From Oscillospiraceae bacterium (GTDB lineage Bacteria > Bacillota > Clostridia > Oscillospirales > Oscillospiraceae), in contig JAGPMA010000012.1 in the NCBI GenBank assembly GCA_018053145.1, forward strand, positions 1-46,342: 46,342 nt of DNA. Direction: 5' to 3'. The notes under the pieces are model-generated. The model ran no database searches. It was not told where the DNA came from and saw nothing but the letters and a program-made list of their open reading frames with translations. Both the position numbers and the translations under genes were made by a program. Positions 180 through 41,770 of the stretch are shown piece after piece (position 1 is the stretch's first letter; the number at the start of each line of letters is the position of its first letter).

Positions 180-576
180 TAATGTTCTGATCTTATAAGT
201 GCATTTCTGATTGATTGCAGCAATTAGAATCAGGAAAAGATGCTCGGCGGCGGAGTCCTTCCGCCGCCGATTTTGCCAAAATCCCTAATTTGTCCCTAAC
301 GGGAGTGAAAATCGCCAAGTATGCGCCTTTTTTGACATTTAGATTGCAATTACTTCCATTTTATTTTACTTGATGTTTATTGTGTCCATCAAACTCGGTA
401 CGGGTCAGTACCAGAAACCTCTGTAATTTAACGCACTACAATTATCAAGCTAAAGCAAACTATATTAAACTCTGTATATTGCAATCGCCTATTTTCCTGC
501 TTGTCTTTCAGTTCTTCGTGTTGTATCCTTAAAGTGGAAATAATTCTTAACAATGATAATCTTTTGGAGGAACCAT
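180..576. other. Non-coding gap with one GC-rich hairpin
   Basis: This 397-base gap holds no convincing gene. Bases 244-270 form an 11-bp perfect stem (TCGGCGGCGGA / TCCGCCGCCGA, loop GTCCT) followed by TTTT, which is a second terminator-like hairpin. A 5-bp stem GGTAC/GTACC lies near 399-414. The rest is AT-rich, and no strong sigma-A promoter for the gene at 577 could be picked out. Confidence 0.6.
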
Positions 577-1098
577 ATGCAAAAAGAGATTTTGTACACC
601 CCTGAAGAGCTTTCCAATATGTTAAAGCTGTCCAGATACACAATCTATGAAATGATAAAGCATGGTGATATACAGGCGCATCATATAGGTCGCAGCATAC
701 GTATCTCACAATCTCAGCTAGATTTGTTTTTAATGAGTACAAAGCAAACTGAGAACACATATGATGCTGAAATTATTGCAGTCGACGGCGAAAAATATGC
801 TTTGGTCAATGGCGTCAGAATCGCGGTTTTGACCGAGCTGGAGGGCCGCGTTAAGGTCATGGTAAGACCCGAGGATATTATCCTCAGCGCAGGAAATTTT
901 GTCAGCAGCGCGCGGAATATGCTGAAAGGCAACATCACAGATATCGTTGTCGATAACCATAGCGCAAGAGTTTATTTAAATGTCGGTATACCCATTTGTT
1001 CACTTATTACCAAGCGTTCTCTCAATGAAATGGGCCTTAAAAAAGGCGATACACTATTCGCGGTGTTTAAAACGATGTCGGTTGAAATAAAAAAATAA
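577..1098 (+). CDS. HTH (excisionase-type) - TOBE/Mop molybdate-responsive regulator
   Basis: A 173-residue protein. Residues 1-50 form a MerR/excisionase-type helix-turn-helix (YTPEELSNMLKLSRYTIYEM, then a wing with HHIGRSIRIS). Two beta-rich segments follow, at about 60-105 and 110-172. The last (NMLKGNITDIVVDNHSARVY through GDTLFAVFKTMSVEI) matches the TOBE/Mop fold that binds molybdate or tungstate. The start is set by GGAGG at 566-570, six bases before ATG 577; the ATG at 553 lacks a site. It sits 47 bases ahead of moeA, so the inference is that it senses oxyanion and controls the Mo-cofactor genes. It differs from ModE, which has a LysR-type winged helix. Excisionase-type HTHs also occur in element genes, and the nearby tRNA scar keeps that alternative open. 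Confidence 0.75.
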   Translation: MQKEILYTPEELSNMLKLSRYTIYEMIKHGDIQAHHIGRSIRISQSQLDLFLMSTKQTENTYDAEIIAVDGEKYALVNGVRIAVLTELEGRVKVMVRPEDIILSAGNFVSSARNMLKGNITDIVVDNHSARVYLNVGIPICSLITKRSLNEMGLKKGDTLFAVFKTMSVEIKK

Positions 1099-1145
1099 GG
1101 ATTAAGCTTCAGGTAGTCTTTTTCAAAGAAGCGAATGAGGTTATT

Positions 1146-2360
1146 ATGCTTAGAGTAAAAACACCTTTTGAAGCGGATGCTTTGCTGAAGGAACGCTTCA
1201 CCAGAAAAGCAGAATGTGAGAAGCTTCCGCTTTGTGAGGCTCTGGGACGCACGCTGTCTGATGACGTGATAAGTCGCGAAAATGTGCCCGATTTCCGCCG
1301 CTCATTGGTTGATGGCTATGCAGTCCGCGCGGAGGATACCTTTGGCTGCTCCGAAACAATTCCCGCTCTTCTGCACCTTGAAGGCGAGGTAAAAATGGGA
1401 CAGCCTGCAGAAATAACCCTTGCTAAAGGGTCCTGCGCCTATGTGCCTACAGGCGGGCAGCTCCCTGACGGAGCAGACGCTATGGTTATGATGGAATTCT
1501 GCGAGGATTTTTGCGATGAAACCATCGCTGTTGAAAAGCCCGTCGCTCCCGGAAGTCACGTGATTTTTCGTGGGGACGATGTTTCTGCGGGAGATGTTCT
1601 ATTCCGCCGAGGGCATCGGATTTTGTCAAAGGATATTGGAGCTTTTGCAGCTCTGGGTTTTGGCCATATTTCTGTGTTCCGCCGTCCTCGCGTGGCAATT
1701 TTATCTACCGGAAACGAAATTGTCCCTTCGGAAACCGAAACATTGAAGCTAGGCCAGATAAGAGACGTGAACGGGCCCATGCTATCAGCCGCAGTTACCG
1801 CCTCCGGAGGAGAGCCTGTCTATCTCGGCATATTTCCAGATAATCCTCAGGTTCTTGAGAATGCAGTCGCCGATGCTGTAAAAGCTTCCGATATTGTGCT
1901 GATTTCCGGCGGAAGCTCCGTAGGCATCAAAGACACAACAGAGGCGGTTCTCTCCAATCTGGGTGAACTTTTATTTCACGGTTTAGCTCTTAAACCCGGC
2001 AAACCGACCCTTGCGGCCGACATTTGCGGCAAGCCGGTTTTCGGCCTGCCCGGGCATCCCCTCGCTGCATATTTTATCTATTGCCTGCTCGTCAGGCCGC
2101 TTCTTTACGAAATGCTGGACAGCACTCCTCAAAACAGGACAGTTTCTGCTCGTAGCGCCGCTGCAATCCCCTCAAATCACGGGCGTGAAGAATGTGTGCC
2201 CATCCGACTGGAGGGCGAACGTGCTATACCCATTATGGGTAAATCCGGTCTTATTACAACTCTCTCCGGTGCAGATGGATATATCCGCATACCTCGTAAC
2301 GCTGAAGGCATTGAGCAGGGCGAATCTGTGCAGGTGTTTTTGTTTTCGGAGGAATTATGA
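1146..2360 (+). CDS. moeA: Molybdopterin molybdotransferase MoeA
   Basis: A 404-residue protein of normal MoeA length. MoeA inserts molybdate into adenylylated molybdopterin, the last common step of molybdenum-cofactor synthesis, in the cytoplasm. Visible family signatures are RRSLVDGYAVRAEDT (about 52-66), RGDDVSAGDVL (about 141-151), ILSTGNEIVPSE in the MogA-like domain, GQIRDVNGPML, ISGGSSVGIKD, and the C-terminal GLALKPGKPTLA...FGLPGHPLAA block. GAGG at 1137-1140 precedes the ATG by five bases. The stop overlaps the next gene's start by four bases (ATGA), so the two MoeA-type proteins are translationally coupled. With two paralogues side by side, one may handle tungstate; the sequence does not decide which. 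Confidence 0.93.
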   Translation: MLRVKTPFEADALLKERFTRKAECEKLPLCEALGRTLSDDVISRENVPDFRRSLVDGYAVRAEDTFGCSETIPALLHLEGEVKMGQPAEITLAKGSCAYVPTGGQLPDGADAMVMMEFCEDFCDETIAVEKPVAPGSHVIFRGDDVSAGDVLFRRGHRILSKDIGAFAALGFGHISVFRRPRVAILSTGNEIVPSETETLKLGQIRDVNGPMLSAAVTASGGEPVYLGIFPDNPQVLENAVADAVKASDIVLISGGSSVGIKDTTEAVLSNLGELLFHGLALKPGKPTLAADICGKPVFGLPGHPLAAYFIYCLLVRPLLYEMLDSTPQNRTVSARSAAAIPSNHGREECVPIRLEGERAIPIMGKSGLITTLSGADGYIRIPRNAEGIEQGESVQVFLFSEEL

Positions 2361-4255
2361 AATACGAATACTTGACAAATGTGCCTCTTGAAAAGGCCAA
2401 AACAGATTATTTATCCTTTTTGCACGAGGCCGGAATGAAGGGAAGAGAAGAAACAGTTCCTGTTACCAATGCCCTTGGGCAGATTACTTCCCGGGCCGTA
2501 TATGCAAAGCTCTGCTCTCCGCATTACAACGCCTCGGCTATGGACGGAATTGCTCTTTTGGCGTCAAAGACCTTTGGAGCATCAGAAACCACTCCTGCGG
2601 TTCTAATGAAAAATGATTTTATCCGCGTCGATACAGGCGACCCTCTTCCCGAGGGGTTCGACGCCGTAATAATGATTGAAGACGTGGTAGAAACCGATAG
2701 TGGAATATTGCTCTACTCCCCCGCTGTTCCCTGGCAGTATATCCGTCAAATCGGAGAGGATATTTGTGCCGGTGACATGCTTCTCCCGTCATACACCCAA
2801 ATAAGCCCTGCCGCAATGGGTGCGATGCTCGCCGGAGGCATACAGGAAGTGCCGGTAATGGCAAAACCGCTTATTGGTATATTACCTACCGGCGACGAAA
2901 TCGTTTCGCCGTCCTCCAATCCCCGCCCAGGAGAGGTAATGGAGTTCAATTCCGCGATTTTTGGCGGTATGCTTACTCAGTGGGGCGCCGAACCGAAGGT
3001 GTATTCCATAATCAAAGACAATGCGGATGCGCTTCGAATGGGGCTTGAAAAAGCCGTCAGCGAATGTGACGGACTGCTGATTGGCGCCGGCACCAGTGCC
3101 GGACGCGATGACTATACGCCTATAATTCTTAAAGAGCTTGGCAAAGTATTGTACCATGGGCTTGCTATCAAACCGGGAAAACCTGCCGTGCTTGCCCGCG
3201 TGGGTACTAAGCCTGTTTTAGGGGTCCCCGGCTACCCTGTGTCCGGAATAATTGTTCTTGAGGAGATTTTTAAACCTATAATCTTCGACCTGCTTAACAA
3301 GCCCTTAGAGGAGCCGCTCACATCACCTGCCAAACTGAGCAAGCGGGTCAATTCCTCTTTAAAATACAGAGAGTTTTTGCGTGTCCGGCTCAACGATACC
3401 GCTGACGGTCTTACCGCCATACCCTTAAACAGCGGGGCCGGAGTGGTGACAAGCTTTGTCAAGGCGGACGCGATACTGGACATTCCTCAAAATACAGAGG
3501 GGCATGAGGCTGGGGAAATAATAAATGTCCGGCTCTTAAAGCCTATCTCACAGATTCGAAATACGCTTTCAGTCGTAGGAAGCCACGACCCTTTAATTGA
3601 CGAAGCAGCGGACCTCCTTCGCAGAGAAAATCCCGCCCTGTCGATTGCCTCCTCTCACGTTGGCAGCATGGGCGGAATATTCGCTGTAAAGCGCGGTGAA
3701 GCAACAATAGCCGGTATTCACCTGCTCGACCCGAAAACGGGTATATATAATAAGAGCTATCTCAAGCGATACTTTTCTGATGGAGAAGCTGTTCTTCTCC
3801 GCTATGTCGGCCGTGTTCAGGGGCTCATTGTCGCTGCCGGAAATCCGCTGAAAATCAGAGGATTCGAGGATGTTACCCACCTGAGATATGTAAATAGACA
3901 GGGCGGTTCGGGAACTCGCATACTTTGCGATTATCTCATTGACGAAAATGATCTGAATATTTCTAATATAACCGGCTATCTTCGTGAAGAATTCACCCAT
4001 ACCGCCGTTGCCGCCCAGATTGCGGCGGGTACGGCGGACGCAGGACTTGGTATATATTCGGCAGCCAAACTCTACGGGCTTGATTTTATACCAATTTGCA
4101 CAGAGGAATATGATTTGCTTCTTAAGGCGGAAAATCTTGAGCTGCCCATGGTAAAACATTTTCTGAGTGTAATCGCCGGAGAGGACTTCAGAAACAGGCT
4201 TAATTCTATGGGAGGTTATATTATTGACAACCCTGGCGGTCTAATTGAGTTTTAG
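2357..4255 (+). CDS. MoeA fused to a C-terminal periplasmic-binding-protein-like domain
   Basis: A 632-residue fusion. Residues 1 to about 400 are a second complete MoeA module: NASAMDGIALLA, GILPTGDEIVSP, GEVMEFNSAIFGGM, IGAGTSAGRDDYT, GLAIKPGKPAVLA, LGVPGYPVSG. From about 405 (SVVGSHDPLIDEAADLL) to the end is a PBP-like ligand-binding domain, with GIHLLDPKTGIYN, GLIVAAGNPLKI, VNRQGGSGTRILCDYL and a TADAGLGIYSAA segment. It resembles the substrate-binding domain of molybdate and LysR-type binding proteins. No signal peptide is present, so the domain is cytoplasmic and may hand over or sense an oxyanion or cofactor precursor. This architecture is known in anaerobes as a molybdopterin biosynthesis protein; its exact role is not settled by the sequence. 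Confidence 0.9.
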   Translation: MKYEYLTNVPLEKAKTDYLSFLHEAGMKGREETVPVTNALGQITSRAVYAKLCSPHYNASAMDGIALLASKTFGASETTPAVLMKNDFIRVDTGDPLPEGFDAVIMIEDVVETDSGILLYSPAVPWQYIRQIGEDICAGDMLLPSYTQISPAAMGAMLAGGIQEVPVMAKPLIGILPTGDEIVSPSSNPRPGEVMEFNSAIFGGMLTQWGAEPKVYSIIKDNADALRMGLEKAVSECDGLLIGAGTSAGRDDYTPIILKELGKVLYHGLAIKPGKPAVLARVGTKPVLGVPGYPVSGIIVLEEIFKPIIFDLLNKPLEEPLTSPAKLSKRVNSSLKYREFLRVRLNDTADGLTAIPLNSGAGVVTSFVKADAILDIPQNTEGHEAGEIINVRLLKPISQIRNTLSVVGSHDPLIDEAADLLRRENPALSIASSHVGSMGGIFAVKRGEATIAGIHLLDPKTGIYNKSYLKRYFSDGEAVLLRYVGRVQGLIVAAGNPLKIRGFEDVTHLRYVNRQGGSGTRILCDYLIDENDLNISNITGYLREEFTHTAVAAQIAAGTADAGLGIYSAAKLYGLDFIPICTEEYDLLLKAENLELPMVKHFLSVIAGEDFRNRLNSMGGYIIDNPGGLIEF

Positions 4256-7195: not shown

Positions 7196-8716
7196 ATGAA
7201 ACTGATGCTTTCAAAAACTGTGAGTGTAATTCTCGTAGCCGCTTTTATGCTTGCTATTATGCCCCCTGCCAGAGCAGATTCGCAGACGCAAAATGGAGCT
7301 TCTTTAAACAGCTTAACACCGACCACCGTCGCTCTTGTCATAGGCGGTAATCAGATTACCACGGGACAAGGCTATTTGAAGAACTTCAGGTATCTCACCA
7401 ACGAGGAGCTGGAGGATATTCGCAAAGGTGCATCCGGAACCATTACATATAAATATGGACTTGGCGACAGCTATCTGGAGGTACCGGTGCTCTATTCCAT
7501 CTGCGAGCACCATGAGACATATCGCTGGGGCTATCGCTATGTTACAGGCCTCGATATCCAAAAGCTTGCCGGTGCTCTTGGAATCGACACGAATCAGGTG
7601 CTTGATATCGGCGTCAAAGCGACGGATGGAATGGAGACAAATTTGCCCGATGCATTCGGATATAAAATTAAGCGTTACTGCTATGATGTTACCGGCAACA
7701 TTAGCAACAAGGTTTTACCCTCCCTTGTTTTTTTTGAATCCGTCAATGAAACACTTATCGAGCCTTCACCCGAAAATCCGACATCTATACCCACGGAACC
7801 GAATACGAGCTTCGGGAGCGCGGATATGTGCTCACAGCCTATTTTCGGTTTTGGGCAGTTGTCCTCAAGAGAGTCAAATAATTGCTTGTGGACTAAGTAT
7901 GTCAACAAGCTTCGTATCGGTTCCGAGTCTGTGGCGCTGACAATTTTCAAAGACAACGGCGGTAAAATAACCACATCAATTTCCGAGATTGTTCGCCGCG
8001 GCGTATACACAACAGATTACTCATTTTTATCCGCCGGAAAGTCAGTTTCAAATCAGGTTTACGGTATCCCGTTAAAAACGCTTTTAACGCAGATGGGCAT
8101 CAGTTTGGATTCCGGCACCCCGTTGGTGGCAACCGATATAAACGGCGGAATAAAAAGCATTTCCAGTGCCGATATTCCATATTGGTTTGTTTCCTGGGAT
8201 GCTCGCAACAATGGCAGCGCTGTAACAAACCAAACCGCCTTGCGGCTTTACGGGCCGGGGCAAGCAGAAAACGAGGTTGTTTTTGCAGACCTGACGAGTC
8301 TCTCTGTCGGAGCAGCGGCTTCTCCTTTCAAGGACCTCGGTGCTTTCAGTTGGGCAAATGAGGCTATAAGCTATTTGTATTCGCGCAGTGTCGTATCGGG
8401 AACAAACGCGACTACCTACTCCCCTGAGGAGAGCATTACTCGAGGTGACTTCATGGTGATGCTTTACCGTGCTTATAAGCTCGGCAGTTTGACTACTGCT
8501 TCCGGCAACTTCTCTGATGTTGTATCCGGCAGCTATTACTTCAACGCGATTGCCGCCGCAAAGGAGCTTGGTAAACAGTCTTATATAAAGCATAAACGCC
8601 ACTATTACTCCGAAGGAAATACTTCCGTTAATCGCAAGCGCCGCTCCAGTAACACAGACGGCCACATAGCCAAGATTTCCGATGAAGCTCATAATTGGCA
8701 TCATCAGACCGGATAG
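7196..8716 (+). CDS. Secreted SLH-domain protein, 3' end lost at a junction
   Basis: Residues 1-27 are a signal peptide (MKLMLSKTVSVILVAAFMLA then PPARA). About residues 35-200 and 235-375 are two related beta-rich modules ending in the patterns QKLAGALGIDTNQ...VKATDG and IPLKTLLTQMGISLDSG...VATDINGG. They recall the sulfite-oxidase-like molybdopterin-binding fold seen in clostridial surface proteins, which is a weak assignment. An SLH repeat follows (FKDLGAFSWANEAISYLYSR ... YSPEESITRGDFMVMLYRAY) and a second begins (FSDVVSGSYYFNAIAAAKEL). At about base 8570 homology stops. The remaining ~48 codons (from QSYIKHKRHYY) are antisense of the converging ABC gene. Normal SLH anchors have three repeats, so the rest of repeat 2 and repeat 3 are gone. 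AGGAGA at 7181-7186 supports the start. Confidence 0.8.
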   Translation: MKLMLSKTVSVILVAAFMLAIMPPARADSQTQNGASLNSLTPTTVALVIGGNQITTGQGYLKNFRYLTNEELEDIRKGASGTITYKYGLGDSYLEVPVLYSICEHHETYRWGYRYVTGLDIQKLAGALGIDTNQVLDIGVKATDGMETNLPDAFGYKIKRYCYDVTGNISNKVLPSLVFFESVNETLIEPSPENPTSIPTEPNTSFGSADMCSQPIFGFGQLSSRESNNCLWTKYVNKLRIGSESVALTIFKDNGGKITTSISEIVRRGVYTTDYSFLSAGKSVSNQVYGIPLKTLLTQMGISLDSGTPLVATDINGGIKSISSADIPYWFVSWDARNNGSAVTNQTALRLYGPGQAENEVVFADLTSLSVGAAASPFKDLGAFSWANEAISYLYSRSVVSGTNATTYSPEESITRGDFMVMLYRAYKLGSLTTASGNFSDVVSGSYYFNAIAAAKELGKQSYIKHKRHYYSEGNTSVNRKRRSSNTDGHIAKISDEAHNWHHQTG

Positions 8717-9553
8717 GAACTGAGATTTAAACGCACTATCGCAAAGTGTGTCGTTAATTTCGTCAAAGGTCTTAGTCGCGGCTTCTTCCCCGTTATAAAT
8801 TTTTACAATATTGTGGCCGGCATAGATTTCCTCAACATGGCCGTTCATCGCACCGAGGTTCTGTTGCTGGCTAGTAAAGTATTTCTGCGATTTTGACATT
8901 ATGAGAATCATTAGCCCAAAGCCGATTATGGTAGCGGCGACCGCGGCAAGCGTCATAATCACATTCGTAGTAAGCATCATGACAAGTGCTCCCAAAAGCA
9001 GGGTTCCTGAGGATACCAGCGTACCAATGCTTTGATTTAGTGTCTGTCCAATCGCGTCAACATCGTTGGTTACACGGCTTAGCACATCGCCGTGGGTAGT
9101 TCTGTTGAAATACCGGATAGGCAGTCTATTGATTTTTTCGGACACATCCGTACGTAGGCTTTTTGATACCTTCTGCGTTACCGTTGCCATAATATATCCT
9201 TGAGCATAAGAAAGCAGCGCACCGACAGCGTATATTACCACAAGCGTAACACATATTTTAACAACAGCGTCCAAATCAATTCCGGTCATTAGCCCCTCTC
9301 CAATCAAATCTGTGACATCACTGATTTTGTTGGGACCGACGAGCGACAGTATCGAGCCTGCGGCCGCAAATAGAATTGCTATGATAATTGCAGGTAGATG
9401 GGCTTTGCAGTATGTAATCAGCTTTACCAGCGTTTGTTTAAAGTCCTTCGCCTTTTCGCCGCTGCCGCCTCCCATGGGCCGCCCCATTGGGCCGCCGGCA
9501 CTAACTTGCTGAGTGGTTTTATTGTCTCCGATAGTGTATTCGTTTTTACTCAT
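8084..9553 (-). CDS. ABC exporter subunit 2, transmembrane domain only (nucleotide-binding domain lost)
   Basis: The first ~327 residues (bases 9553 down to about 8571) are a type I ABC exporter membrane domain. After a Gly/Met-rich head (SAGGPMGRPMGG) come membrane segments from about 50 on, the coupling region PIRYFNRTTHGDVLSRVTND, and MLYIRLFT, where homologues continue with a QPL-type sequence. From about base 8570 the frame reads antisense through the SLH gene to a stop at 8084, giving ~160 residues with no ABC features. The whole nucleotide-binding domain (about 250 residues with Walker A, signature and Walker B) is missing. The start codon shares one base with the stop of the upstream subunit, so the pair was built as a heterodimer of the BmrCD/TM287-288 kind. 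Confidence 0.8.
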   Translation of the reverse strand: MSKNEYTIGDNKTTQQVSAGGPMGRPMGGGSGEKAKDFKQTLVKLITYCKAHLPAIIIAILFAAAGSILSLVGPNKISDVTDLIGEGLMTGIDLDAVVKICVTLVVIYAVGALLSYAQGYIMATVTQKVSKSLRTDVSEKINRLPIRYFNRTTHGDVLSRVTNDVDAIGQTLNQSIGTLVSSGTLLLGALVMMLTTNVIMTLAAVAATIIGFGLMILIMSKSQKYFTSQQQNLGAMNGHVEEIYAGHNIVKIYNGEEAATKTFDEINDTLCDSAFKSQFLSGLMMPIMSFIGNLGYVAVCVTGAALAINGSISFGVIVAFMLYIRLFTKLLCGGNRVEVIAAGYNIREVAGSSSQTAELISTVKHHHEVTSSNALLRGVGSRVCSRYDTARIQIAYSLICPTESTEVLERRSRCSDRETRQVCKNNLVFCLPRPVKPQGGLVCYSAAIVASIPGNKPIWNIGTGNAFYSAVYIGCHQRGAGIQTDAHLR

Positions 9554-11310
9554 TATGCCAATTCCTCCTTTGAAAGCTGTGATAGAGCAATTTCTTGATA
9601 GACCGAACAGTTTTTCATAAGCTCATCATGCGTGCCGATGCCGGCTACACAGCCTTCCTCAAGCACAACGATTTTGTCCGCATCCTTGATTGTACCGATG
9701 CGTTGTGCAACGATAAGCGTGGTTGTGTCACCGGTTTCCTTTTTCAACGCCGAGCGCAAAACCCTGTCAGTCTTATAGTCGAGCGCGGAGAACGCGTCGT
9801 CAAAAATATAGATTTCTGGCTTCCTGCAGACTGCGCGCGCGATGGAAAGGCGTTGCTTCTGTCCTCCTGACAGGTTTGTTCCGCCCTGCGCGACCAGTCC
9901 ATAGTAATTTGCCGGCATTTTTTCAACAAAATCTCTGCTCTGTGCAATTTCTACAGCCTTTATTACGTCGTCCTCGCTATATGCGTCACCGCCGTTTTCA
10001 CCATAAGCCACATTGGACATCACCGTTCCGGAGAACATCACCGCTCTTTGCGGTACATACCCAAATTTATTATGAAGCACCTTCTGAGTGTATTTTTTTA
10101 CATCGACACCGTCCACCAGCACCTCGCCCTCCGTGGCATCATAAAAGCGCGGCACTAGATTGATGAGTGTGCTTTTTCCACTGCCCGTTGAGCCGATAAA
10201 CGCGACTGTCTCACCCTTGTGAGCCGTAAAGCTCACGTCCTTGAGTACATATTCCGAAGCGTCCGGATATTTGAAGCTGACATTGCGGAATTCAAGCTCA
10301 CCCTTCTGGCCGCCGAGAACTGATGATACCGTTCCGTCAAGTATCGTCGGCTTAGTTCCAATTACCTCGGCAATACGCTTCGCGGCAACGGTAGCGCGCG
10401 GCAGCATTATAAATATCATGCTGAGCATCATAAACGACATTATTATCTGTAGTGCGTAGGACATGAAAACGACCATATTTGAAAACAACGTGAATTTTTC
10501 CGGCATTCCCGCAGAATTGATAAGGTATGCTCCAATCCAATATATTGCCAGGCTTAGTCCGTTCATAATCAGCGACATTCCAGGCATCATTATCGCCATC
10601 ACGCGATTTGCGAAAAGATTGGTGTTCGTAAGCTCGCTGTTAGCCTGCTCAAATTTGCTTTCCTGATAGCTTTCGGCGTTATAAGCTCTCACGACGCGAA
10701 GTCCTGTAAGGTTTTCTCTCGTAACGCGGTTAATATTATCCGTAAGCCCCTGGATTTTTTTGAATTTAGGGATTGCAAATAAAACAACGATGCTTATCAT
10801 AATTATAAGTACAAGCACCGCTACGGCGGTTGCTGTTGTCCATTCCATACCCTTGTTGGCAATTTTTGTAACCGCCCATACTGCTGTTATTGGAGCTTTT
10901 ATAATTGCCTGCAAGCCCATGGCTATAATCATCTGCACTTGTGTGATATCATTTGTAGAGCGAGTAATGAGGCTTGCTGTTGAAAATCCGTTAATTTCCT
11001 CCATGGAGAAGGACTCGACTCTATCGAACTGAAGCTTGCGAAGAGTTTTGCTGAAGTTTGCCGCCACGCGCGCCGCCAGACCAGCGGTTACTATTGATGC
11101 GCCAAGGCTTCCGAGCGTGCACATGAGCATCTTTACTCCAGCGTTTAATATTTCGCTCATCGTGCTGCCCTGGGTTTGAATTAAATTAGTTATATCACTC
11201 ATATAATCCGGCAGCTTCAAATCGAGCCATACCTGCGACAGTATAAAAATCAGGCTGACGCCTATCAAGCTCCAATCCCTTACTTTTAAGTATTTTATAA
11301 TTTTTGCCAT
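9553..11310 (-). CDS. ABC exporter subunit 1 (degenerate-site half of a heterodimeric multidrug-type pump)
   Basis: A complete half-transporter of 585 residues: membrane domain about 10-310, nucleotide-binding domain about 335-575. Walker A is GSTGSGKST (about 374-382), the Q-loop is in FGYVPQ, and the signature is LSGGQKQR (about 480). In Walker B (IYIFDDAFSALD) the catalytic Glu is Asp, and the switch His is Gln (LIVAQRIGTI). These substitutions mark the degenerate-site subunit of heterodimers such as TM287/TM288 and LmrCD. It therefore needs the partner encoded downstream for ATP hydrolysis, and that partner has lost its ATPase domain. The start at 11310 (MAKIIKYLK) fits AAGAGG nine bases upstream better than the ATG at 11319, which abuts it. 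It diverges from a two-component system. Confidence 0.9.
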   Translation of the reverse strand: MAKIIKYLKVRDWSLIGVSLIFILSQVWLDLKLPDYMSDITNLIQTQGSTMSEILNAGVKMLMCTLGSLGASIVTAGLAARVAANFSKTLRKLQFDRVESFSMEEINGFSTASLITRSTNDITQVQMIIAMGLQAIIKAPITAVWAVTKIANKGMEWTTATAVAVLVLIIMISIVVLFAIPKFKKIQGLTDNINRVTRENLTGLRVVRAYNAESYQESKFEQANSELTNTNLFANRVMAIMMPGMSLIMNGLSLAIYWIGAYLINSAGMPEKFTLFSNMVVFMSYALQIIMSFMMLSMIFIMLPRATVAAKRIAEVIGTKPTILDGTVSSVLGGQKGELEFRNVSFKYPDASEYVLKDVSFTAHKGETVAFIGSTGSGKSTLINLVPRFYDATEGEVLVDGVDVKKYTQKVLHNKFGYVPQRAVMFSGTVMSNVAYGENGGDAYSEDDVIKAVEIAQSRDFVEKMPANYYGLVAQGGTNLSGGQKQRLSIARAVCRKPEIYIFDDAFSALDYKTDRVLRSALKKETGDTTTLIVAQRIGTIKDADKIVVLEEGCVAGIGTHDELMKNCSVYQEIALSQLSKEELA

Positions 11311-11424
11311 TTCATCCATCCTCTTCTTTGTTATAGTTGCTGTTTCATTACAGGCCGATGATAAAACCGCTTCATTAACTGAAAAGAAACTTAGAAAGTT
11401 CTTTTTCGGTTAATTTTCATATGC

Positions 11425-11453: not shown

Positions 11454-12128
11454 ATGTTTCATATACTGATAGTTGAAGATGATAAAAACACTAGAAAGCT
11501 GATGGAAGCCGTTCTGAAAAGAGACGGTTATTCGGTTTGCACCGCCGAAAACGGACTGCTTGCGCTTGAGCTAATGGATACACAGCATGTCGATCTTATT
11601 GTTTTGGATATTATGATGCCCGCCATGAACGGTTATGAATTCACAAAAGAGCTGCGGGATGCCGGCTGCACGATTCCCATTCTCATGGTTACGGCAAAAC
11701 AGCTTCCCGCAGATAAAAAGCAGGGTTTTATTGTCGGCACCGACGACTATATGACAAAACCTGTGGATACTGAGGAAATGCTTTTGCGAATCAAAGCTCT
11801 CCTCCGACGTTCACAGATCGTCAGCGAACACAAGCTCACTATCGGGCAGGTAACGTTGGATTACAATGCTCTGGCCGTTATTCGAGGCGACGAAAGGCAG
11901 ACTCTTCCGCAAAAGGAATTCCAGCTATTGTACAAGCTGCTGTCCTATCCCGACCACATTTTCACACGCATACAGCTCATGGACGAGATTTGGGGCATGG
12001 AGTCCGAAAGCACGGACACAACAGTGAATGTTCATATCAATCGGCTGCGCAGGCGGTTCGAGGATTATCCGGAATTTGAGCTAGTTTCCGTACGAGGACT
12101 TGGCTATAAGGCGGTGAAAACAATATGA
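11454..12128 (+). CDS. OmpR-family response regulator
   Basis: 224 residues. The receiver domain (1-118) has the acidic pair ED(D) at 8-10, phospho-acceptor Asp52 in IVLDIMMPAM, the switch Thr in LMVTAK and Lys in MTKPVD. The C-terminal winged-helix domain (about 128-224) has the typical FQLLYKLLSYPDHIFTR and VNVHINRLRRRF...VRGLGYKA patterns. It overlaps the kinase start by four bases (ATGA 12125-12128), a standard coupled pair. Since it diverges from the ABC exporter genes over 134 bases, it may control that pump, as in many Firmicute antimicrobial-response modules. That link is inferred from position only. Confidence 0.93.
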   Translation: MFHILIVEDDKNTRKLMEAVLKRDGYSVCTAENGLLALELMDTQHVDLIVLDIMMPAMNGYEFTKELRDAGCTIPILMVTAKQLPADKKQGFIVGTDDYMTKPVDTEEMLLRIKALLRRSQIVSEHKLTIGQVTLDYNALAVIRGDERQTLPQKEFQLLYKLLSYPDHIFTRIQLMDEIWGMESESTDTTVNVHINRLRRRFEDYPEFELVSVRGLGYKAVKTI

Positions 12129-13168
12129 GACAAAAACTCAGGAATCGCATAGGAATGTCTTTGCATTTTTCTCTAGTAGTGTTTTTCAATTTCGTTTTCA
12201 CTTCTATGTTAATTGCCGCCATCAGTTTTATTGCCTTAAAAGTTCAGCCTGTGGATAGATTTGATAGTCGCAATATCTTTTTTATGATCGTAATTGTGCT
12301 GGCCGCAAGCGTTATAGTCGGCACGGTATTATCACCTGTCATTGGCCGGCGAGCTCTCAAGCCCTTCAGAAAGGTCATCTCTGCCACCGACAAGCTAGCC
12401 GGCGGAGATTTTTCCGTAAGGCTTGATATTTCTCATCCACCGGAATTCAATAAACTTGCCAAGAGCTTCAATCGCATGGCTGAGGATCTCGGCGGCATTG
12501 AGCTTTTGCGAACAGATTTTATAAACAACTTTTCCCACGAGTTTAAAACCCCCATTGTTTCAATTAAAGGTTTTGCGGAAATATTGAAATATGACGACCT
12601 GACTTCTGAAGAGCGGAACGAATATCTCGATATTGTAATTAGTGAGTCAAGCCGTTTGGCTGCGCTTGCAACTAATGTGCTGAATCTTTCAAAAGTGGAA
12701 AACCAGCAAATTCTAACCGATAAGCTAACCTTTGACTTAGGAGAACAGATTCGTCGTTGCATTCTCATACTTGAGCCAAAGTGGAATAATAAAAACATAT
12801 CGCTTTCCGTTAATTTGCAGGACTTGCAATGCTTCGGAAATGAAGAATTTCTGAGTCAGGTTTGGATTAATCTTCTTGACAACGCGTTGAAATTCACGCC
12901 GGAGGGCGGAAAAATAACAGTTGCGCTCGGAACGGATAACGAAAAGGCTAAATTTGTTCTGCGCGATAATGGGGCAGGCATCAGCGAGGATGCAGCAACG
13001 CATATTTTTGACAAATTTTATCAGGCGGACACCTCTCATGCCGCCGAGGGAAATGGGCTTGGTCTAACTTTGGCAAAGAAAATTGTTGAGCTGCATGGCG
13101 GAAGCATAGCGTGCAAAAGCAGGCTTGATGAAGGTACTGAATTCACGGTTCTGCTGCCGCTAAAGTAG
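12125..13168 (+). CDS. Membrane sensor histidine kinase (HAMP-HisKA-HATPase)
   Basis: 347 residues. Two membrane helices (about 15-40 and 52-75) flank a very short external loop of about ten residues (VQPVDRFDSRN). A HAMP linker (about 76-128), HisKA with NNFSHEFKTP (His138) and a HATPase domain follow. The HATPase domain has N-box WINLLDNALKFTPEGG, G1 box LRDNGAGISED, F-box FDKFYQAD and G2 box GNGLGLTLAKKI. A kinase with almost no extracellular domain usually senses within the membrane or through a transporter, which would fit the divergent ABC exporter. It is coupled to the response regulator by a four-base overlap. Confidence 0.93.
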   Translation: MRQKLRNRIGMSLHFSLVVFFNFVFTSMLIAAISFIALKVQPVDRFDSRNIFFMIVIVLAASVIVGTVLSPVIGRRALKPFRKVISATDKLAGGDFSVRLDISHPPEFNKLAKSFNRMAEDLGGIELLRTDFINNFSHEFKTPIVSIKGFAEILKYDDLTSEERNEYLDIVISESSRLAALATNVLNLSKVENQQILTDKLTFDLGEQIRRCILILEPKWNNKNISLSVNLQDLQCFGNEEFLSQVWINLLDNALKFTPEGGKITVALGTDNEKAKFVLRDNGAGISEDAATHIFDKFYQADTSHAAEGNGLGLTLAKKIVELHGGSIACKSRLDEGTEFTVLLPLK

Positions 13169-13261: not shown

Positions 13262-13320
13262 CAGACTGTCGAGAAAAAGCGTCTCATGCTAAGCATGGGG
13301 CGCTTTTTGTCTACAGTCTG
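13262..13320. repeat. Compound hairpin between two terminators
   Basis: Outer arms CAGACTGT (13262-13269) and ACAGTCTG (13313-13320) enclose an inner hairpin. In it AAAAAGCG (13274-13281) pairs with CGCTTTTT (13301-13308), continued inward by CATGC/GCATG around TAA. The inner arm ends in TTTTT, so it could itself terminate + strand transcripts. It lies between the other two terminator stems. Confidence 0.7.
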
Positions 13321-13354
13321 AGCCGGAGGATTGATTTCCTCCGGCTCTTTTTTT
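13320..13354 (+). terminator. Rho-independent terminator of the two-component operon
   Basis: The arms GAGCCGGAGGA (13320-13330) and TCCTCCGGCTC (13337-13347) form a perfect stem followed by seven Ts on the + strand, running into the cysS stop codon on the other strand. Confidence 0.85.
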
Positions 13355-14756
13355 ATATGTGACGCCACTTAACACCCTGCGGCGTGTCTTCAAGCACTAT
13401 TCCCTTCGCTTTCAGCTCATCGCGAAGCCGGTCAGCCTCAGCAAAGTTTTTTGCTTTTCTGGCCGCCTGACGCGCCTCAATAAGCGCCTCAACCTCAGCG
13501 TCAAGGTTTTCCTCCGCTTTTGAAATCGGAAGTCCTATAACAGCCGAAAGCTCATCGAAAATCGCACCACAGGCGCTTGCCAAAGCTTTTGTTGGGTTTG
13601 AGGAGGGGCTAACAGCTGCGTTTATCTCGCGCACCAGTTCAAAAATAACGGCAACCGCGTCGGCAGTATTAAGGTCATCGTCCATAACCTCGCAAAAACG
13701 CGCACGGTATTTCGGAAGTCCCTCAGCAATGGTCTTTTCAGCATCTGTCATCTCGCCGTCAACACCATTTTCAATGAAAAATTCAAGATTTGCTTTAGCT
13801 GTGGAAAGACGTTCGAGCGCGTTATTAGCCTGTTCCAGAATATCACCGGAGTAATTGAGCGGACTGCGATAATGGCTCATCAGCATAAACATACGTATTG
13901 CATTATACCCATAAGCCGCTGCCGCATCACGAACGGTAAAGAAGTTATTGAGCGACTTGCTCATCTTTTTATTATCAACGCTAATAAAGCCGTTGTGCAT
14001 CCAGTAGTTTACGAATTTGCAGCCGTTTGCCGCCTCTGATTGAGCGATTTCGTTCTCGTGGTGAGGGAAAATTAAGTCCTGTCCACCGCAGTGAATGTCG
14101 ATAGTTTCGCCCAAATATCTGTTGCTCATGGCGCTGCATTCAATGTGCCAGCCTGGTCTGCCTTTTCCCCAGGGCGAATCCCAATAAGGCTCGTCGGGCT
14201 TCGCTGCCTTCCATAGCGCAAAATCCATGGGATTCTCTTTAATCTCTGCAACGTCAATTCTTGCTCCCGCCTGCAAATCTTCAAGCGGCTGATGGCTCAG
14301 CTTTCCATATTCTTTAAACTTCGTTGTACGGTAATATACATCTCCGTTCACCTCATATGCATAGCCTTTTTTGATAAGGGTGTCCACCATCGAAATAATC
14401 TGTTCGATGTTTTCGGTAGCCTTTGGATGAATAGTTGCCTCGCGAACTCCCAAGCCATGCGAATCGTGAAAATACTCCACGATATATTTCTCGGAAATTT
14501 CCTTGGAGCTTGCGCCCTCTTCGTTTGCGCGTTTGATTATTTTATCGTCAACATCGGTAAAATTCTGGACAAAGGTGACTTCATAGCTGCGATATTCCAG
14601 ATAACGTCGCAGAACATCAAACATAATCAGGGGTCTTGCGTTGCCAACATGAATATAGTTATAAACCGTCGGGCCGCAAGCATACATTCTCACCTTTCCC
14701 GCTTCAATAGGCACAAATTCTTCCTTTTGCATTGTCAGTGAATTAAATAGTTTCAT
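13353..14756 (-). CDS. cysS: Cysteinyl-tRNA synthetase
   Basis: 467 residues, the usual length for bacterial CysRS. The enzyme charges tRNA-Cys with cysteine. The catalytic zinc-binding Cys lies in [20 protein letters not shown], which carries the HIGH-type signature as HVGN. Further zinc-site residues occur in GWHIECSAM and [11 protein letters not shown], and the KMSKS loop is [10 protein letters not shown]. The C-terminal DALR-type helical domain ends in GVKWRHI. GGAGG about seven bases upstream supports the start. It is the second gene behind a Cys T-box with cysE, so cysteine supply and charging are controlled together. Confidence 0.97.
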
Positions 14757-14790
14757 TTGTATTTTCCTCCGAAATTATATTCTCTAAATT

Positions 14791-15429
14791 CTATTCGCCT
14801 TTTGCTCTTTGATCCAAAAGCTCTTTAATCTGCTCGTGCAGACAGACAAGCTCGTTTGCAATCGGGTCTGTAACGCTAATCTGGTCAACATCTCCGGCAA
14901 AGTTTGTTTTCTGTCCGTCAATGCGAACTATCCTGGCCGGAACGCCCACAGCGGTGCTATTTGGAGGAACCTCCTTCAGCACAACAGCATTTGCGGCAAT
15001 GCGGCAATTGTCTCCAACCTTAAACGGCCCCAAAATCTTAGCTCCGGACCCAATAAGCACATTGTTCCCGATAGTCGGGTGCCGTTTGCCCGTGTCCTTT
15101 CCGGTTCCGCCCAGTGTAACTCCCTGATACAGCAGCACGTCGTCGCCGATTTCCGCTGTTTCACCAATGACAATGCCCATACCGTGGTCAATAACAAGCC
15201 GTTTCCCGATTGTTGCACCGGGGTGAATCTCAATCCCAGTCTTTTTTCGTGAACGCTGAGAAATCCAGCGTGCGATAAGTTTCATGTCGTGTCTATAAAA
15301 ATAATTCGCTCTTTTGTGTGATAAGCTCGCCTTAATGCCCGGATAGAGCAAAAACACCTCAAGAGATGAGCGCGCAGCCGGATCTCTTGCTTTGTAAGCG
15401 TCAATCAATTCTCGCAAATTGTCAAACAT
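14791..15429 (-). CDS. cysE: Serine O-acetyltransferase
   Basis: 212 residues of the short SAT type (EpsC/CysE). It makes O-acetylserine from serine and acetyl-CoA, the first step of cysteine synthesis. The N-terminal helical part has HKRANYFYRHDMKLIARWIS. The left-handed beta-helix shows IHPGATIGKRLVIDHGMGIV (His residues of the active site), IGETAEIGDDVLLYQGVTLG and GNNVLIGSGAKILGPFKVGD. The C-terminal tail may hold the cysteine-synthase-binding segment, though it does not end in Ile. It is the first gene after the T-box; GGAGGG sits just upstream. Confidence 0.95.
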   Translation of the reverse strand: MFDNLRELIDAYKARDPAARSSLEVFLLYPGIKASLSHKRANYFYRHDMKLIARWISQRSRKKTGIEIHPGATIGKRLVIDHGMGIVIGETAEIGDDVLLYQGVTLGGTGKDTGKRHPTIGNNVLIGSGAKILGPFKVGDNCRIAANAVVLKEVPPNSTAVGVPARIVRIDGQKTNFAGDVDQISVTDPIANELVCLHEQIKELLDQRAKGE

Positions 15430-15444
15430 AACATCCCTCCAATA

Positions 15445-15693
15445 AAATCAAAAAGCCTCTCACGGACTTTATGCCCGTGAGAGGCGAATTACATTCGCGG
15501 TTCCACTCTCATTTATCACTCGCCGGCTGTCACCGGTTATAGCCATATCGTGGCAAACGGGGAAGCATTTCCTCCTCCCATAGCTCCGGGGCGCACTTCA
15601 AACATCTCTGCGATATTGCCGCTTTCAGCCTTGGCGGCAAATCTCTGTAGCGCTAAAATGTTTTACTTTCCCTTTCATAGCCATATTCAGTTA
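15445..15693 (-). promoter_or_regulatory. T-box riboswitch (tRNA-Cys) for cysE-cysS
   Basis: On the - strand the leader shows the T-box core AGAGTGGAACCGCG (15496-15509). A terminator follows, GCCTCTCACGG...CCGTGAGAGGC (15455-15485), and then TTTTTGATTTT. The core and the sequence after it can pair with the terminator arm as an antiterminator. Upstream, a stem I region contains a specifier-like GAAGTGCGCC (bases about 15588-15597). TGC in that loop is a Cys codon, matching the cysE-cysS cargo. Uncharged tRNA-Cys should therefore turn both genes on. The specifier assignment is by eye. Confidence 0.9.
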
Positions 15694-15700
15694 TGACATT

Positions 15701-15729
15701 ATATTAACACGAAGTAAAAATAGTGTCAA
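15701..15729 (-). promoter_or_regulatory. Sigma-A promoter of the T-box cysE-cysS operon
   Basis: A perfect -35 TTGACA (complement of 15724-15729) and a -10 TAATAT (complement of 15701-15706) are 17 bases apart. It overlaps the last codons of pgsA, so cysE-cysS has its own start and does not depend on readthrough from rimO-pgsA. Confidence 0.8.
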
Positions 15730-16277
15730 TCTTTAATATTGAAGGCATTTTTGTTTGCCACAAAGTAATCAACGCCCGAATAAACCGTCACAAAAACAAT
15801 GAGCGCAACGCAAATATCGTTTACAGACAGTAGTGAAAACACCTTGAACCCATATATTTTCTCTGGCAAAAACATTATGCATATACAGATCATCGACAGA
15901 GCCGTCTTAACCTTGCCGGATGTCCCCGCAGCAATAACGGTTCCGTCCTCCATCGCCACGAGCCGAAGTCCTGTAACCGCAAATTCGCGCGCAATAACAA
16001 TCATGCACGCCCACGAAACCATCTGTCCGTTCTCGACAAAAATTAGCAGCGCGGCAAAAACGAGAAGCTTGTCCGCCAGCGGGTCGATGAACTTGCCGAA
16101 GGTTGAAACCTGATTATAGTGCCTTGCCACATAGCCGTCCAAGCTGTCTGTAAGTGCGGCAAAAACAAAAATTCCGAGTGCGAGATAGTTGTGTCCCGCA
16201 AAATCCATAAGCGCTGCGGCAATAAAAAATGGTATTAGCGCAATTCGCGCCATAGTGATTTTACTTGCAGTAGTCAT
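15726..16277 (-). CDS. pgsA: CDP-diacylglycerol-glycerol-3-phosphate 3-phosphatidyltransferase
   Basis: 183 residues, a polytopic membrane enzyme that makes phosphatidylglycerol phosphate, the committed step to acidic phospholipids. The CDP-alcohol phosphotransferase signature is complete: DSLDGYVARHYNQVSTFGKF followed by IDPLADK (about 42-68), giving D-x2-DG-x2-AR-x8-G-x3-D-x3-D. Several hydrophobic segments cover the rest. It lies 24 bases after rimO on the same strand, a neighbourhood common in Firmicutes. Confidence 0.95.
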   Translation of the reverse strand: MTTASKITMARIALIPFFIAAALMDFAGHNYLALGIFVFAALTDSLDGYVARHYNQVSTFGKFIDPLADKLLVFAALLIFVENGQMVSWACMIVIAREFAVTGLRLVAMEDGTVIAAGTSGKVKTALSMICICIMFLPEKIYGFKVFSLLSVNDICVALIVFVTVYSGVDYFVANKNAFNIKD

Positions 16278-16301
16278 AAAAAAGGCCCATTCCTTTCAGC
16301 A

Positions 16302-17624
16302 TTACACTTGTCCGCCAATCCATTCTCCGTCGGCAATTTCTGTAATCTCCACCTCAACAAGCTCGCCTGCGGCGCATTCTCCAGAGAAAAGAACAATTCC
16401 GTCAATATCCGGCGAATCCGCGAAGCTTCTGCCGAACTGCAGTCCGATTTCCTCGTCATAGCCCTCGCAGAGCACGCGAATAGTTTTTCCAACAAAGTCT
16501 TGGCTCCACTCGTCCATAATCTCCGCTTGAATGTCCATAACGATTTCCTGACGGCGTTTTGCTTCGTCCTCATCGCAGCGGTCAAGCATTTCAGCAGCCG
16601 GCGTGCCCTCCTCCGGAGAAAACACAAACACGCCAGCACGCTCGATTTTTGCCTCACGTAAAAATCCGCAAAGCTCATCAAATTCGTCCTCGCCCTCACC
16701 GGGCAACCCGACAATAAGGCTTGTCCGAATCACGACCTCAGGTATTTTTTTTCTAAGCTTTTTAATTAATACGCGAACATCATCGCCCGTTCCGCGCCGA
16801 TTCATTCTCTTGAGGATGTCGTCGTTTATGTGTTGAATCGGAATGTCAACGTACTTTAGTATTTTCTTTTCCGTAGCTATAACATCAATCAGCTCGTCTT
16901 CAAGCACATCCGGATAGAGGTAATGAAGCCTAATCCACTCAACGCCCCTTATTCCGCAAAGCTTGCGCAAAAGTTCTGAAAGTGAGCGTTTTCCGTACAA
17001 ATCCACGCCATATCGCGTAATATCCTGCGCTACCACGATAAGCTCCTTGGTGCCTGTCTGCGCGAGAGCACGCGCTTCGTCCAAAATGTCTTCCATTTTA
17101 CGGCTGCGATATTTCCCCCTAATAGAGGGAATAACGCAGAAGGCGCAACGGTTATTGCAGCCCTCGGCAATGCGCAGATAAGCCCATGCGGGGCCGGTTG
17201 ATACTATGCGTCCGGTCTCGTCCAGCGCCCCGTCAATATCTCCGAATTTCGCCACTTGCTTGCCCTTGAGCGAAGAATTGACAGCCTCGACTATGTCCGA
17301 ATAGCTCCCTGTTCCAAGCACAGAATCGATTTCCGGAAGCTCTTTTAAAATGTCGTCCTTGTATCTCTGTGCAAGACAGCCGGTAACGATAATACTCTTG
17401 ATTTTACCGGCTTTTTTAAGCTCACCCATCTCAATAATGGTGTCAATAGCCTCCGTTTTCGCGGATTCGATGAAGCCACAGGTGTTGACAACAACAGCCT
17501 CCGCTTCCTCGGGGTCGGGTACAATTTCCATGCCCGCCTCACACATAAGATAAAGCATCTGCTCGCTGTTTATCAGGTTTTTCGGACAGCCCAGCGATAT
17601 CAGAGCCACCTTGTTTTTCGCCAT
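16302..17624 (-). CDS. rimO: Ribosomal protein S12 methylthiotransferase RimO
   Basis: 440 residues. A radical-SAM enzyme with two 4Fe-4S clusters that methylthiolates an Asp of ribosomal protein S12. The N-terminal methylthiotransferase domain has the three cluster cysteines in ISLGCPKNLINSEQ, VVNTCGFIES and VTGCLAQRY. The radical-SAM motif C-x3-C-x2-C is GCNNRCAFCVIPSIRGKYRS (about 147-166). The C-terminal TRAM-like domain includes IRVLCEGYDEE. The CPKN motif and overall length favour RimO over MiaB. GGAGG lies eight bases upstream. Confidence 0.95.
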   Translation of the reverse strand: MAKNKVALISLGCPKNLINSEQMLYLMCEAGMEIVPDPEEAEAVVVNTCGFIESAKTEAIDTIIEMGELKKAGKIKSIIVTGCLAQRYKDDILKELPEIDSVLGTGSYSDIVEAVNSSLKGKQVAKFGDIDGALDETGRIVSTGPAWAYLRIAEGCNNRCAFCVIPSIRGKYRSRKMEDILDEARALAQTGTKELIVVAQDITRYGVDLYGKRSLSELLRKLCGIRGVEWIRLHYLYPDVLEDELIDVIATEKKILKYVDIPIQHINDDILKRMNRRGTGDDVRVLIKKLRKKIPEVVIRTSLIVGLPGEGEDEFDELCGFLREAKIERAGVFVFSPEEGTPAAEMLDRCDEDEAKRRQEIVMDIQAEIMDEWSQDFVGKTIRVLCEGYDEEIGLQFGRSFADSPDIDGIVLFSGECAAGELVEVEITEIADGEWIGGQV

Positions 17625-17707
17625 AGAAACCTCCCATTTGTGCGTTATAAATCGGGTTAAGTACCCCCATAAAAGTCTTCTTTTTGAGCAAAACAGCGCT
17701 CAAAATA

Positions 17708-39655: not shown

Positions 39656-41770
39656 ATGAAAGCAAAGAAAACAATTTCCGGAGCACTGATTCTGATAATT
39701 TTAATCAGTCTTTCCTTAAACACATACGCGGCACAATGGGAAGATTTTTCTGATATAAAGGGACATTGGGCGGAGGAGACACTTCGCCGCAGCTTCAATG
39801 ACGGACTGATTTCAGGCTTTGAAGACAACACGCTTGCACCTGATGCACCAATTACTACCGCTCAGATGATAACCGTGCTGTGCCGCGTTCTCGGCGCAAC
39901 CGAAACCGCTGATGCTTCAAGTCTTGGCATTTCCGCCGACGCTTGGTATTTCGATTCCGCAAGCAAGGCTCTTCGCCTTGGCTTGATTTCTTCCGAAACG
40001 GGAAATTTGGAAGCCGACATGACAAGACAGAATGCACTATCAATGATGGCTAAGGCGTTTTGCCTTGTTCCGGCAGAGCCGAATTTTGCCGAATTAAGTC
40101 AATTTTCGGACACAGGCAGTATTTCGGCAAATAACAAAGGCGCTTTAGCTGCCCTTGTTTCCGAAAAATTTGTAACCGGTTACGGCGGTGCGCTTAACGT
40201 AAGCAGCAGTATCACTCGGGCAGAATTTTTTACAGTTCTCTATCGTGTCGCCCAAAATTATATCACTTCTGACGCACTTAGCTCCGGCACGCAAGGCAAC
40301 AGCGTTTTAAGAGGCAACAGCTTTCTCAGCTATATCAGCACAGGCAAAATCTGGTTTGATTCCTCAGCGGAAAGCGTCACACTTTCGGGCGTAAAGTCCG
40401 ACACGGTTACCCTTCGCAGTCACAAGCTTAATAGTTTTAGTATCAGTAACGGTTCAGACCTTTCTCGTTTGGTCATCGCCGTCGGAACAGGCAGCGCTGC
40501 TCTTGATTTTATCGGAAGCTCAAAAATCGGTCAGCTTCAGCTTGAAGCCTGCACAAGCGCAAGTGTCGGCTCGGGCGTCGGCTCTATTGAGATAACAGGA
40601 AACGGCATTTCCACAAGTATTTCGGGAACGCACGATTCACTGATCATCACAGGCAGTAACAACACTGTTACTCTCTCCGCCGGTGTTTCTCTTACAAAGG
40701 TGAAAATTATGGGGGATAATAATATCGTTAAAGCGGCCGACTCCGCTTCTCTCGGCGGCAGCGCTTCCTGTGCGGATATCGAGATTTCGGGAAATGGAAA
40801 CACCCTTGCCTTTAACAATTCTGCCGAAACCCCCTGCAAGCTTTTAGTCAGCGGCTCGCTTAACAACATCTCGGCAAAAAGCGAGGGCAATATTGAGGCT
40901 GTGACACTTTCGGGCAATTCGAACTGGCTTTCTCTTGTTTGCAAAAACCTATCCTCAGTTGTGATATCCGGAAACTACAACACCGTGAATAAGCAAGACG
41001 CCGGCAAGGTAGAGGCTGTCGAAATCCCCGGAGTGAACAACGTTTTCGTGCTATATGAGGAAAACGAGCTTGTCAGCGCCCAAACGAAGGGGTTGAGCAA
41101 TACCGTCACAATTAACGGCGCTGCCGACAATATAACTCTTTACGGACGAAAGACCATTCTTGACGGCAGCGGAAAAGTCAAAAGCCTAAACATCAGCGCC
41201 TCGGACTGCACTATTAGCCTTGCGGCAGAAACTATAGCCGACAACGGCATTCAGGCAGAGGAAGACCGTGTACTCGAGCTTGTGACTCTCGGTTACGCCG
41301 GAGACTTTACACTAAAATGGGCTCAGGAGCACGACTACGAGACTTCGGAAAAGGAAATCTGGGTTAACGCGAAGGAATATACAAGCAAAACCGAATATCT
41401 TTTATGGATTAATCTTTCGATGCAGAGAGTTAACATCTTCAAAGGCAGCGAGGGCGCATGGTCGCTGTGCTACAGCTGCATCGTTGGAACGGGCGCTCCG
41501 GGGCGCGGCACGCCTGTGGGCATATATAATACCACCTATAAGTCGTGGGCCGGTTGGACAACCCCCTCCTATACGGTTAAGCCTGTTGTCGGCTTTAAGA
41601 TAAATACAGGCTATGCCTTCCACTCCCGTTTATACAACCCCGGCGGCACAAAGCTCTCTGACGCGTCAATCGGCTTTCCCGTCAGCCACGGCTGTGTGAG
41701 AATGTATGACGAGGATGTGTTGTACATTTACAACAACATTCCGCTCGGCACAACAGTTGTGGTATATTAA
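39656..41770 (+). CDS. SLH - beta-solenoid - L,D-transpeptidase (YkuD) wall protein
   Basis: 704 residues. Signal peptide (1-25, ending NTYAA). Three SLH repeats (about 26-210: FSDIKGHWAEETLRRSFNDG, then ISADAWYFDSASKALRLGLI, then a third) anchor it to wall polymers. From about 220 to 545 is a chain of short repeats with a G-x2-N-x-[VL] core (ITGSNNTVTL, IMGDNNIVKA, ISGNGNTLAF, ISGNYNTVNK, TKGLSNTVTI), predicted to form a right-handed beta-solenoid. The last ~150 residues are a YkuD L,D-transpeptidase: LLWINLSMQRVNIFKG, GTPVGIYNTT, AFHSRLYNPGG and the catalytic FPVSHGCVRMYDED (Cys in SHGC). It would crosslink peptidoglycan 3-3 or attach proteins. It diverges from queH. Confidence 0.93.
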   Translation: MKAKKTISGALILIILISLSLNTYAAQWEDFSDIKGHWAEETLRRSFNDGLISGFEDNTLAPDAPITTAQMITVLCRVLGATETADASSLGISADAWYFDSASKALRLGLISSETGNLEADMTRQNALSMMAKAFCLVPAEPNFAELSQFSDTGSISANNKGALAALVSEKFVTGYGGALNVSSSITRAEFFTVLYRVAQNYITSDALSSGTQGNSVLRGNSFLSYISTGKIWFDSSAESVTLSGVKSDTVTLRSHKLNSFSISNGSDLSRLVIAVGTGSAALDFIGSSKIGQLQLEACTSASVGSGVGSIEITGNGISTSISGTHDSLIITGSNNTVTLSAGVSLTKVKIMGDNNIVKAADSASLGGSASCADIEISGNGNTLAFNNSAETPCKLLVSGSLNNISAKSEGNIEAVTLSGNSNWLSLVCKNLSSVVISGNYNTVNKQDAGKVEAVEIPGVNNVFVLYEENELVSAQTKGLSNTVTINGAADNITLYGRKTILDGSGKVKSLNISASDCTISLAAETIADNGIQAEEDRVLELVTLGYAGDFTLKWAQEHDYETSEKEIWVNAKEYTSKTEYLLWINLSMQRVNIFKGSEGAWSLCYSCIVGTGAPGRGTPVGIYNTTYKSWAGWTTPSYTVKPVVGFKINTGYAFHSRLYNPGGTKLSDASIGFPVSHGCVRMYDEDVLYIYNNIPLGTTVVVY

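Follow-up and report, generated by a model that had tools for sequence, protein, structure and literature searches.

The anchoring unit of SLH surface proteins is a trimer of SLH domains, as described in the excerpted part of PMC6081394. In the heterodimeric ABC exporter TM287/288 the glutamate of the consensus ATP site lies on TM288, and the excerpt of PMC5216877 on which we draw reports a turnover of 0.022 ATP per minute (25 °C) once it is changed from Glu to Gln; the degenerate site is considered an unlikely source of this residual activity. In DNA obtained by multiple displacement amplification, according to the passages of PMC1855051 used here, most chimeras consist of inverted sequences with a deletion between them, and over 70% of the junctions involve priming at 2–21 complementary bases.

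The window analysed here is the entire 46,342-base contig C62, which contains no N bases and belongs to a draft genome of 2.25 Mb in 106 contigs, with a listed completeness of 95% and contamination of 1.2%. Like SLH-anchored surface proteins such as Paenibacillus alvei SpaA and the S-layer protein Sap, its SLH protein has, on the C-terminal side, a complete repeat followed by roughly half of another; unlike them, it has its three-repeat unit cut short and an N-terminal part without relatives in the genomes, plasmids and contigs searched. The neighbouring ABC pair resembles TM287/288 (PDB 3QF4) in that subunit A matches TM287 and carries Asp and LSGGQ, while the intact subunit B of a relative (genome G001) matches TM288 and B homologues have Glu and a mostly non-consensus signature; the window's own B differs in lacking the entire nucleotide-binding domain (NBD). 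As in gene remnants left by microhomology deletions, two genes are cut at one point with 3–4 common bases, but the ABC remnant is undecayed and the ancestral arrangement was not found among the relatives examined. The inverted sense of the two genes and the few common bases also recall the chimeric junctions of amplified DNA in the cited part of PMC1855051, a comparison that presupposes amplified DNA and from which the window departs in that its missing parts were not found elsewhere.

Results

Junction of two converging genes

Both genes lose their homology at the same bases, as the initial annotation had proposed for a single junction at about 8570. The SLH gene (5′ part at 7196–8572, + strand) opens a 506-aa frame at 7196 in which Pfam places an SLH domain at residues 377–419, and phmmer against solved structures follows the homology into the second repeat, up to residue 458. 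Within 8555–8585, which reads GCCGCAAAGGAGCTTGGTAAACAGTCTTATA, the SLH frame runs GCC GCC GCA AAG GAG CTT GGT (AAAKELG) and its last base is 8572, so that the loss described after AAAKELG agrees with homology reaching to about 8572. On the – strand the ABC frame reads CTG TTT ACC (L-F-T), with 8570 as its last base, and the codon that follows is AAG (K), a position occupied by Q in 20 of the 24 homologues compared there, in keeping with the loss of homology noted after MLYIRLFT.

The bases GGT at 8570–8572 are common to both genes by codon reading in both frames. Of the GGTA first described as shared at 8570–8573, GGT is therefore certain and the A is inferred: because A comes next at the corresponding place in 12 of the 22 SLH repeat motifs examined, the A at 8573 appears compatible with the SLH side and is assigned to it, and we place the junction, which has no strand, at 8570–8573. 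In window orientation the corresponding bases are AAAGCGGCTGAGT in the ABC gene of G001 and AAGTGGCTGGGT in that of contig C86 of the same genome, set against AAAGGAGCTTGGT in the SLH gene, and because of these readings the true parent sequences may have had a longer, imperfect match than 3–4 bases.

Past the junction each frame reads the antisense of the other gene, again as annotated. The + ORF runs on for 144 bases to 8716 (8573–8716, antisense to the ABC gene) and the – ORF for 486 bases to 8084 (8084–8569, antisense to the SLH gene), and neither tail contains a Pfam domain. For annotators, the C-terminal tails of the 506-aa and 489-aa ORFs are false.

The shortened SLH protein

The SLH protein retains one full repeat plus roughly half of the next, short of three in a row, and the nearest SLH protein in the genus mate G007 extends 297 bases further. 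By analogy with the trimeric anchoring unit, the cut surface protein should anchor poorly. Its N-terminal part comprises about 365 residues without known relatives: a search of 393 other genomes from the order gave no relative of its N-terminal 335 residues, plasmids gave none either, and no close relative came from GTDB contigs or viral contigs, in scans that detect close relatives only and may omit the source genome itself. Among the matches listed in 97 other genomes, none reached the N-terminal 270 residues, and 7196–8275, encoding the N-terminal 360 residues, gave no Pfam match at E up to 1. The gene comes after molybdenum-cofactor (MoeA) and XdhC genes, and the window holds another SLH protein at 39656–41770, fused to a YkuD L,D-transpeptidase domain.

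The exporter pair and its homologues

The converging gene encodes a TM288-like subunit B (8570–9553, – strand) that consists of an N-terminal linker and the transmembrane domain and is without an NBD, as judged by Pfam and an 80-locus comparison; its ORF from 9553 is 489 aa long, with ABC_membrane at residues 56–328 and no ABC_tran. The partner, TM287-like subunit A (9553–11319, – strand), is intact and has both the membrane and the ATP-binding domain by Pfam. It matches TM287 (3qf4_A) at 1.4e-114, ranking behind 8wcw_A and others, and the intact B of G001 has TM288 (3qf4_B) as its top match at 3.1e-138. As two adjacent half-transporters, each with transmembrane domain and NBD, A is complete and the window B is without its NBD; the B subunits of G001 and of contig C86 are complete. 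A putative response regulator and histidine kinase (11454–13168, + strand) stand divergent from the pair and give tblastn matches of 58% and 41% in L092, a locus of G001 where the ABC pair is adjoined by a similar two-gene (two-component) set.

A scan of GTDB contigs with the membrane domain gave 107 relatives, the best 80 of which served as loci. Walker A and the signature are present in 76 of the 80, a contig end cuts two, and in L123 and L130, where Walker A is present and the signature unrecognised, the protein continues for 290 and 197 residues past the membrane domain. Homologues that naturally stop after the membrane domain, the counter-case raised in the initial annotation, were looked for, and, unlike the window copy, none of the 78 evaluable loci among these best 80 ends there. 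In G001, the closest relative, an intact B of 621 residues lies next to A, with 289 codons past L-F-T, or 870 bp with the stop; the earlier estimate of about 840 bp lost from the ABC gene was similar in size and is adjusted accordingly. Across the other genomes of the genus the best B copies lie in open frames of 608–657 aa in 8 of 10, with the B pieces of G010 split over two contigs and G005 without a close copy.

Subunit A reads IFDDAFSALD, with Asp for the catalytic Glu, and NLSGGQ, a normal LSGGQ signature. At the 80 loci, A-type motifs have Asp in 73 (no motif recognised in seven), and B homologues have the catalytic Glu in 77 (no motif recognised in three) and a signature that is non-consensus in 69, SGGQ in five and unrecognised in six; these B-half features of the degenerate site are judged from the homologues, the window B having lost its NBD. 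By analogy with TM287/288, we infer that the window pair would have lost the catalytic half (Walker A/B and the Glu of the sole consensus ATP site) and kept the degenerate one. Because the consensus-site catalysis of B is gone and A carries Asp there, A should not pump, either by itself or with the cut B, and the exporter should be dead; the pair is not to be counted as functional. A second exporter pair, A and B, is complete on contig C86, with a likely counterpart on contig C21 of G001 (77.5% and 79.2% identical), and its presence may make the loss tolerable.

Age of the break

Of 64 positions with conservation of at least 90% across the rest of the alignment, the surviving membrane domain keeps all 64, and it outscores 65 of the 80 homologues. 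Over the membrane domains, dN to G001 is 0.174 for the cut B, against 0.173 for A, its intact partner; in the intact second pair A stands at 0.192 and B at 0.201. We use dN alone and give the event no date because synonymous sites are saturated (dS 1.7–3.6). The membrane domain shows no sign of relaxed constraint. Since it is undecayed, the break would be either very recent or artificial: if real, it must on this sequence comparison be very recent, and an artefact would give the same picture. A real junction would thus mark a very young loss beside a paralogous pair. The truncation is specific to the source genome on the ABC side, where the homologues are intact; the SLH gene has an open frame and no orthologue with which to compare it.

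Composition, assembly and the missing parts

The left 8,570 bases of the window have a tetranucleotide distance of 0.0134 to the genome mean, compared with 0.0149 ± 0.0022 and a maximum of 0.0197 for 20 segments of the same genome; four segments from two genus mates lie at 0.0195–0.0238, so that the two ranges just touch (0.0197 and 0.0195). On this side the MoeA/molybdenum-cofactor genes are 71% and 81% identical to those of G007, and on the right a block at 13365–17635 corresponds to one continuous place in G001, G006, G007 and G010 at 76–79% (79% to G007). A foreign left half, that is, a chimera of distant organisms, is unlikely because the composition of the left side fits and both sides resemble genus mates.

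A repeat-driven misjoin within the bin is also unlikely. Searching 8440–8700 against its own genome at E up to 10 yields only weak matches, of 14 bases at 100%, 20 at 90%, 38 at 79% and 47 at 75%, all of which stop short of crossing the junction, and no repeat that crosses it is present in the assembly. An overlap of 3–4 bases is far under the word sizes of assemblers. The suggestion that similar short words, wrongly joined in assembly, would give an identical picture is consequently too loose, and the artefact really able to look like this junction is a chimeric molecule.

With the missing domain of G001 as query, the genome returns 69 ABC-type matches, led by the complete C86 paralogue at 71%, with the following ones at 33–34%; the lost NBD was not found elsewhere in the 2.25-Mb, 95%-complete draft, from which some 5% may be missing. 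With the SLH end of G007 as query there are 11 matches, every one in a frame of at least 513 aa and none of them an orphan SLH 3′ piece, although such a query may miss an SLH end that has diverged strongly.

Gene neighbourhoods in relatives

SLH genes were sought over 101 loci, 97 around ABC homologues and four around molybdenum genes, many of them with short flanks. Matches occur in five: L109, L164, L092, L101 and the molybdenum region of G007. In the Paenibacillus loci L109 and L164 the SLH match lies on the same strand, 4.4–4.9 kb past the membrane-domain match; in L092 and L101 of G001 it is an upstream same-strand gene, putatively glycosidase-like; and in G007 the molybdenum genes lie on a different contig from the ABC pair. 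An intact SLH gene beside an intact exporter pair, the arrangement that the initial annotation had proposed seeking in related genomes, did not emerge: none of the 101 loci, many with short flanks, has an SLH gene that converges on an ABC homologue.

Discussion

Our comparison of the two broken genes with their homologues leads us to prefer, as the origin of the junction, a deletion that is real and recent and took about 1.2 kb or more, and to which we give a probability of roughly 0.55. A recent chromosomal deletion, joined at 3–4 common bases, would have taken some 300 bp or more from the 3′ end of the SLH gene, about 870 bp from that of the convergent ABC subunit gene, and any sequence that separated the two. 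We infer that the two genes were formerly convergent neighbours whose ends were lost in this way, and damage of this kind would be ordinary. One junction explains both losses, and the single deletion first put forward stands as the simplest reading, but no relative examined has both genes, intact and convergent, as neighbours.

An artefact is the foremost alternative, which we hold to be possible but clearly less probable than a deletion: distant places of one genome would have been linked by an assembly misjoin or by a molecule that became chimeric in the library or during amplification, and both genes would be intact in the cell. The undecayed membrane domain and the division of the draft into 106 contigs are both as expected on this account. 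The window joins two converging coding strands at 3–4 bases, as amplification chimeras would to judge from the cited portion of PMC1855051. An artefact of this kind should, however, leave the missing NBD and SLH ends elsewhere in the assembly, where they were not found, and the absence of a junction-crossing repeat makes a misjoin within the bin unlikely.

Doubtful, and rather less probable again, is a real inversion, translocation or insertion that broke both genes and left the reciprocal SLH 3′ end and ABC NBD in an unassembled part of the genome. An inversion or translocation with a missing partner piece fits the form of the junction as well as a deletion does. The SLH and ABC genes are not neighbours in any relative examined, the two-component genes, divergent from the ABC genes in the window, share their orientation in G001, and the start of the contig resembles a mobile-element join in tRNA-Pro (92–137), which suggests that the contig carries another rearrangement. 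Set against these points, neither missing 3′ part was found in the 2.25 Mb, and the inverted repeats in 7800–9600 are imperfect and at most 15 nt long, which leaves no obvious site-specific switch; an inversion switch of that type is rejected on the same ground.

A natural short form, an NBD-less membrane domain working with the intact subunit A, is very improbable: the frame is indeed open and conserved up to the junction, but none of the 78 evaluable loci ends there, even though L130 is short (197 residues past the membrane domain), the window tail is the antisense of another gene, and the NBD that is kept, in A, is the degenerate one. We give equally little credence to the idea that the NBD-less subunit is retained on purpose, pairing with A as a regulator or passive channel while the second pair carries out active export.

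Other features of the contig deserve mention in their own right. The 3′ half of a tRNA-Pro gene lies at 92–137 without its 5′ half, with a flank at 138–361 behind it, and ARAGORN finds no tRNA in the window. In G001 an intact tRNA-Pro(TGG) is followed by the same flank at 89%. Locus L187 of G007 (C66, 7–9628) likewise has the tRNA-Pro 3′ half and flank (7474–7748) without the 5′ half, with an AbiEi/AbiEii pair on one side, a HerA-like ATPase on the other and a phage-type integrase about 7 kb off on the ATPase side. From these sequences, 92–137 resembles the distal attachment site of an off-contig element integrated in tRNA-Pro; alternatively, the contig may begin with a false join.

The cluster at 553–4255 comprises HTH-TOBE, MoeA and MoeA-PBP genes in an order unlike that of G007, where HTH-TOBE comes after the MoeA genes and is followed by a putative ABC-transporter set. 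Finally, short intergenic pieces at 13275–13346 match contigs C16 and C88 of the same genome at 86–94% over 32–42 bases and are perhaps a small interspersed repeat.
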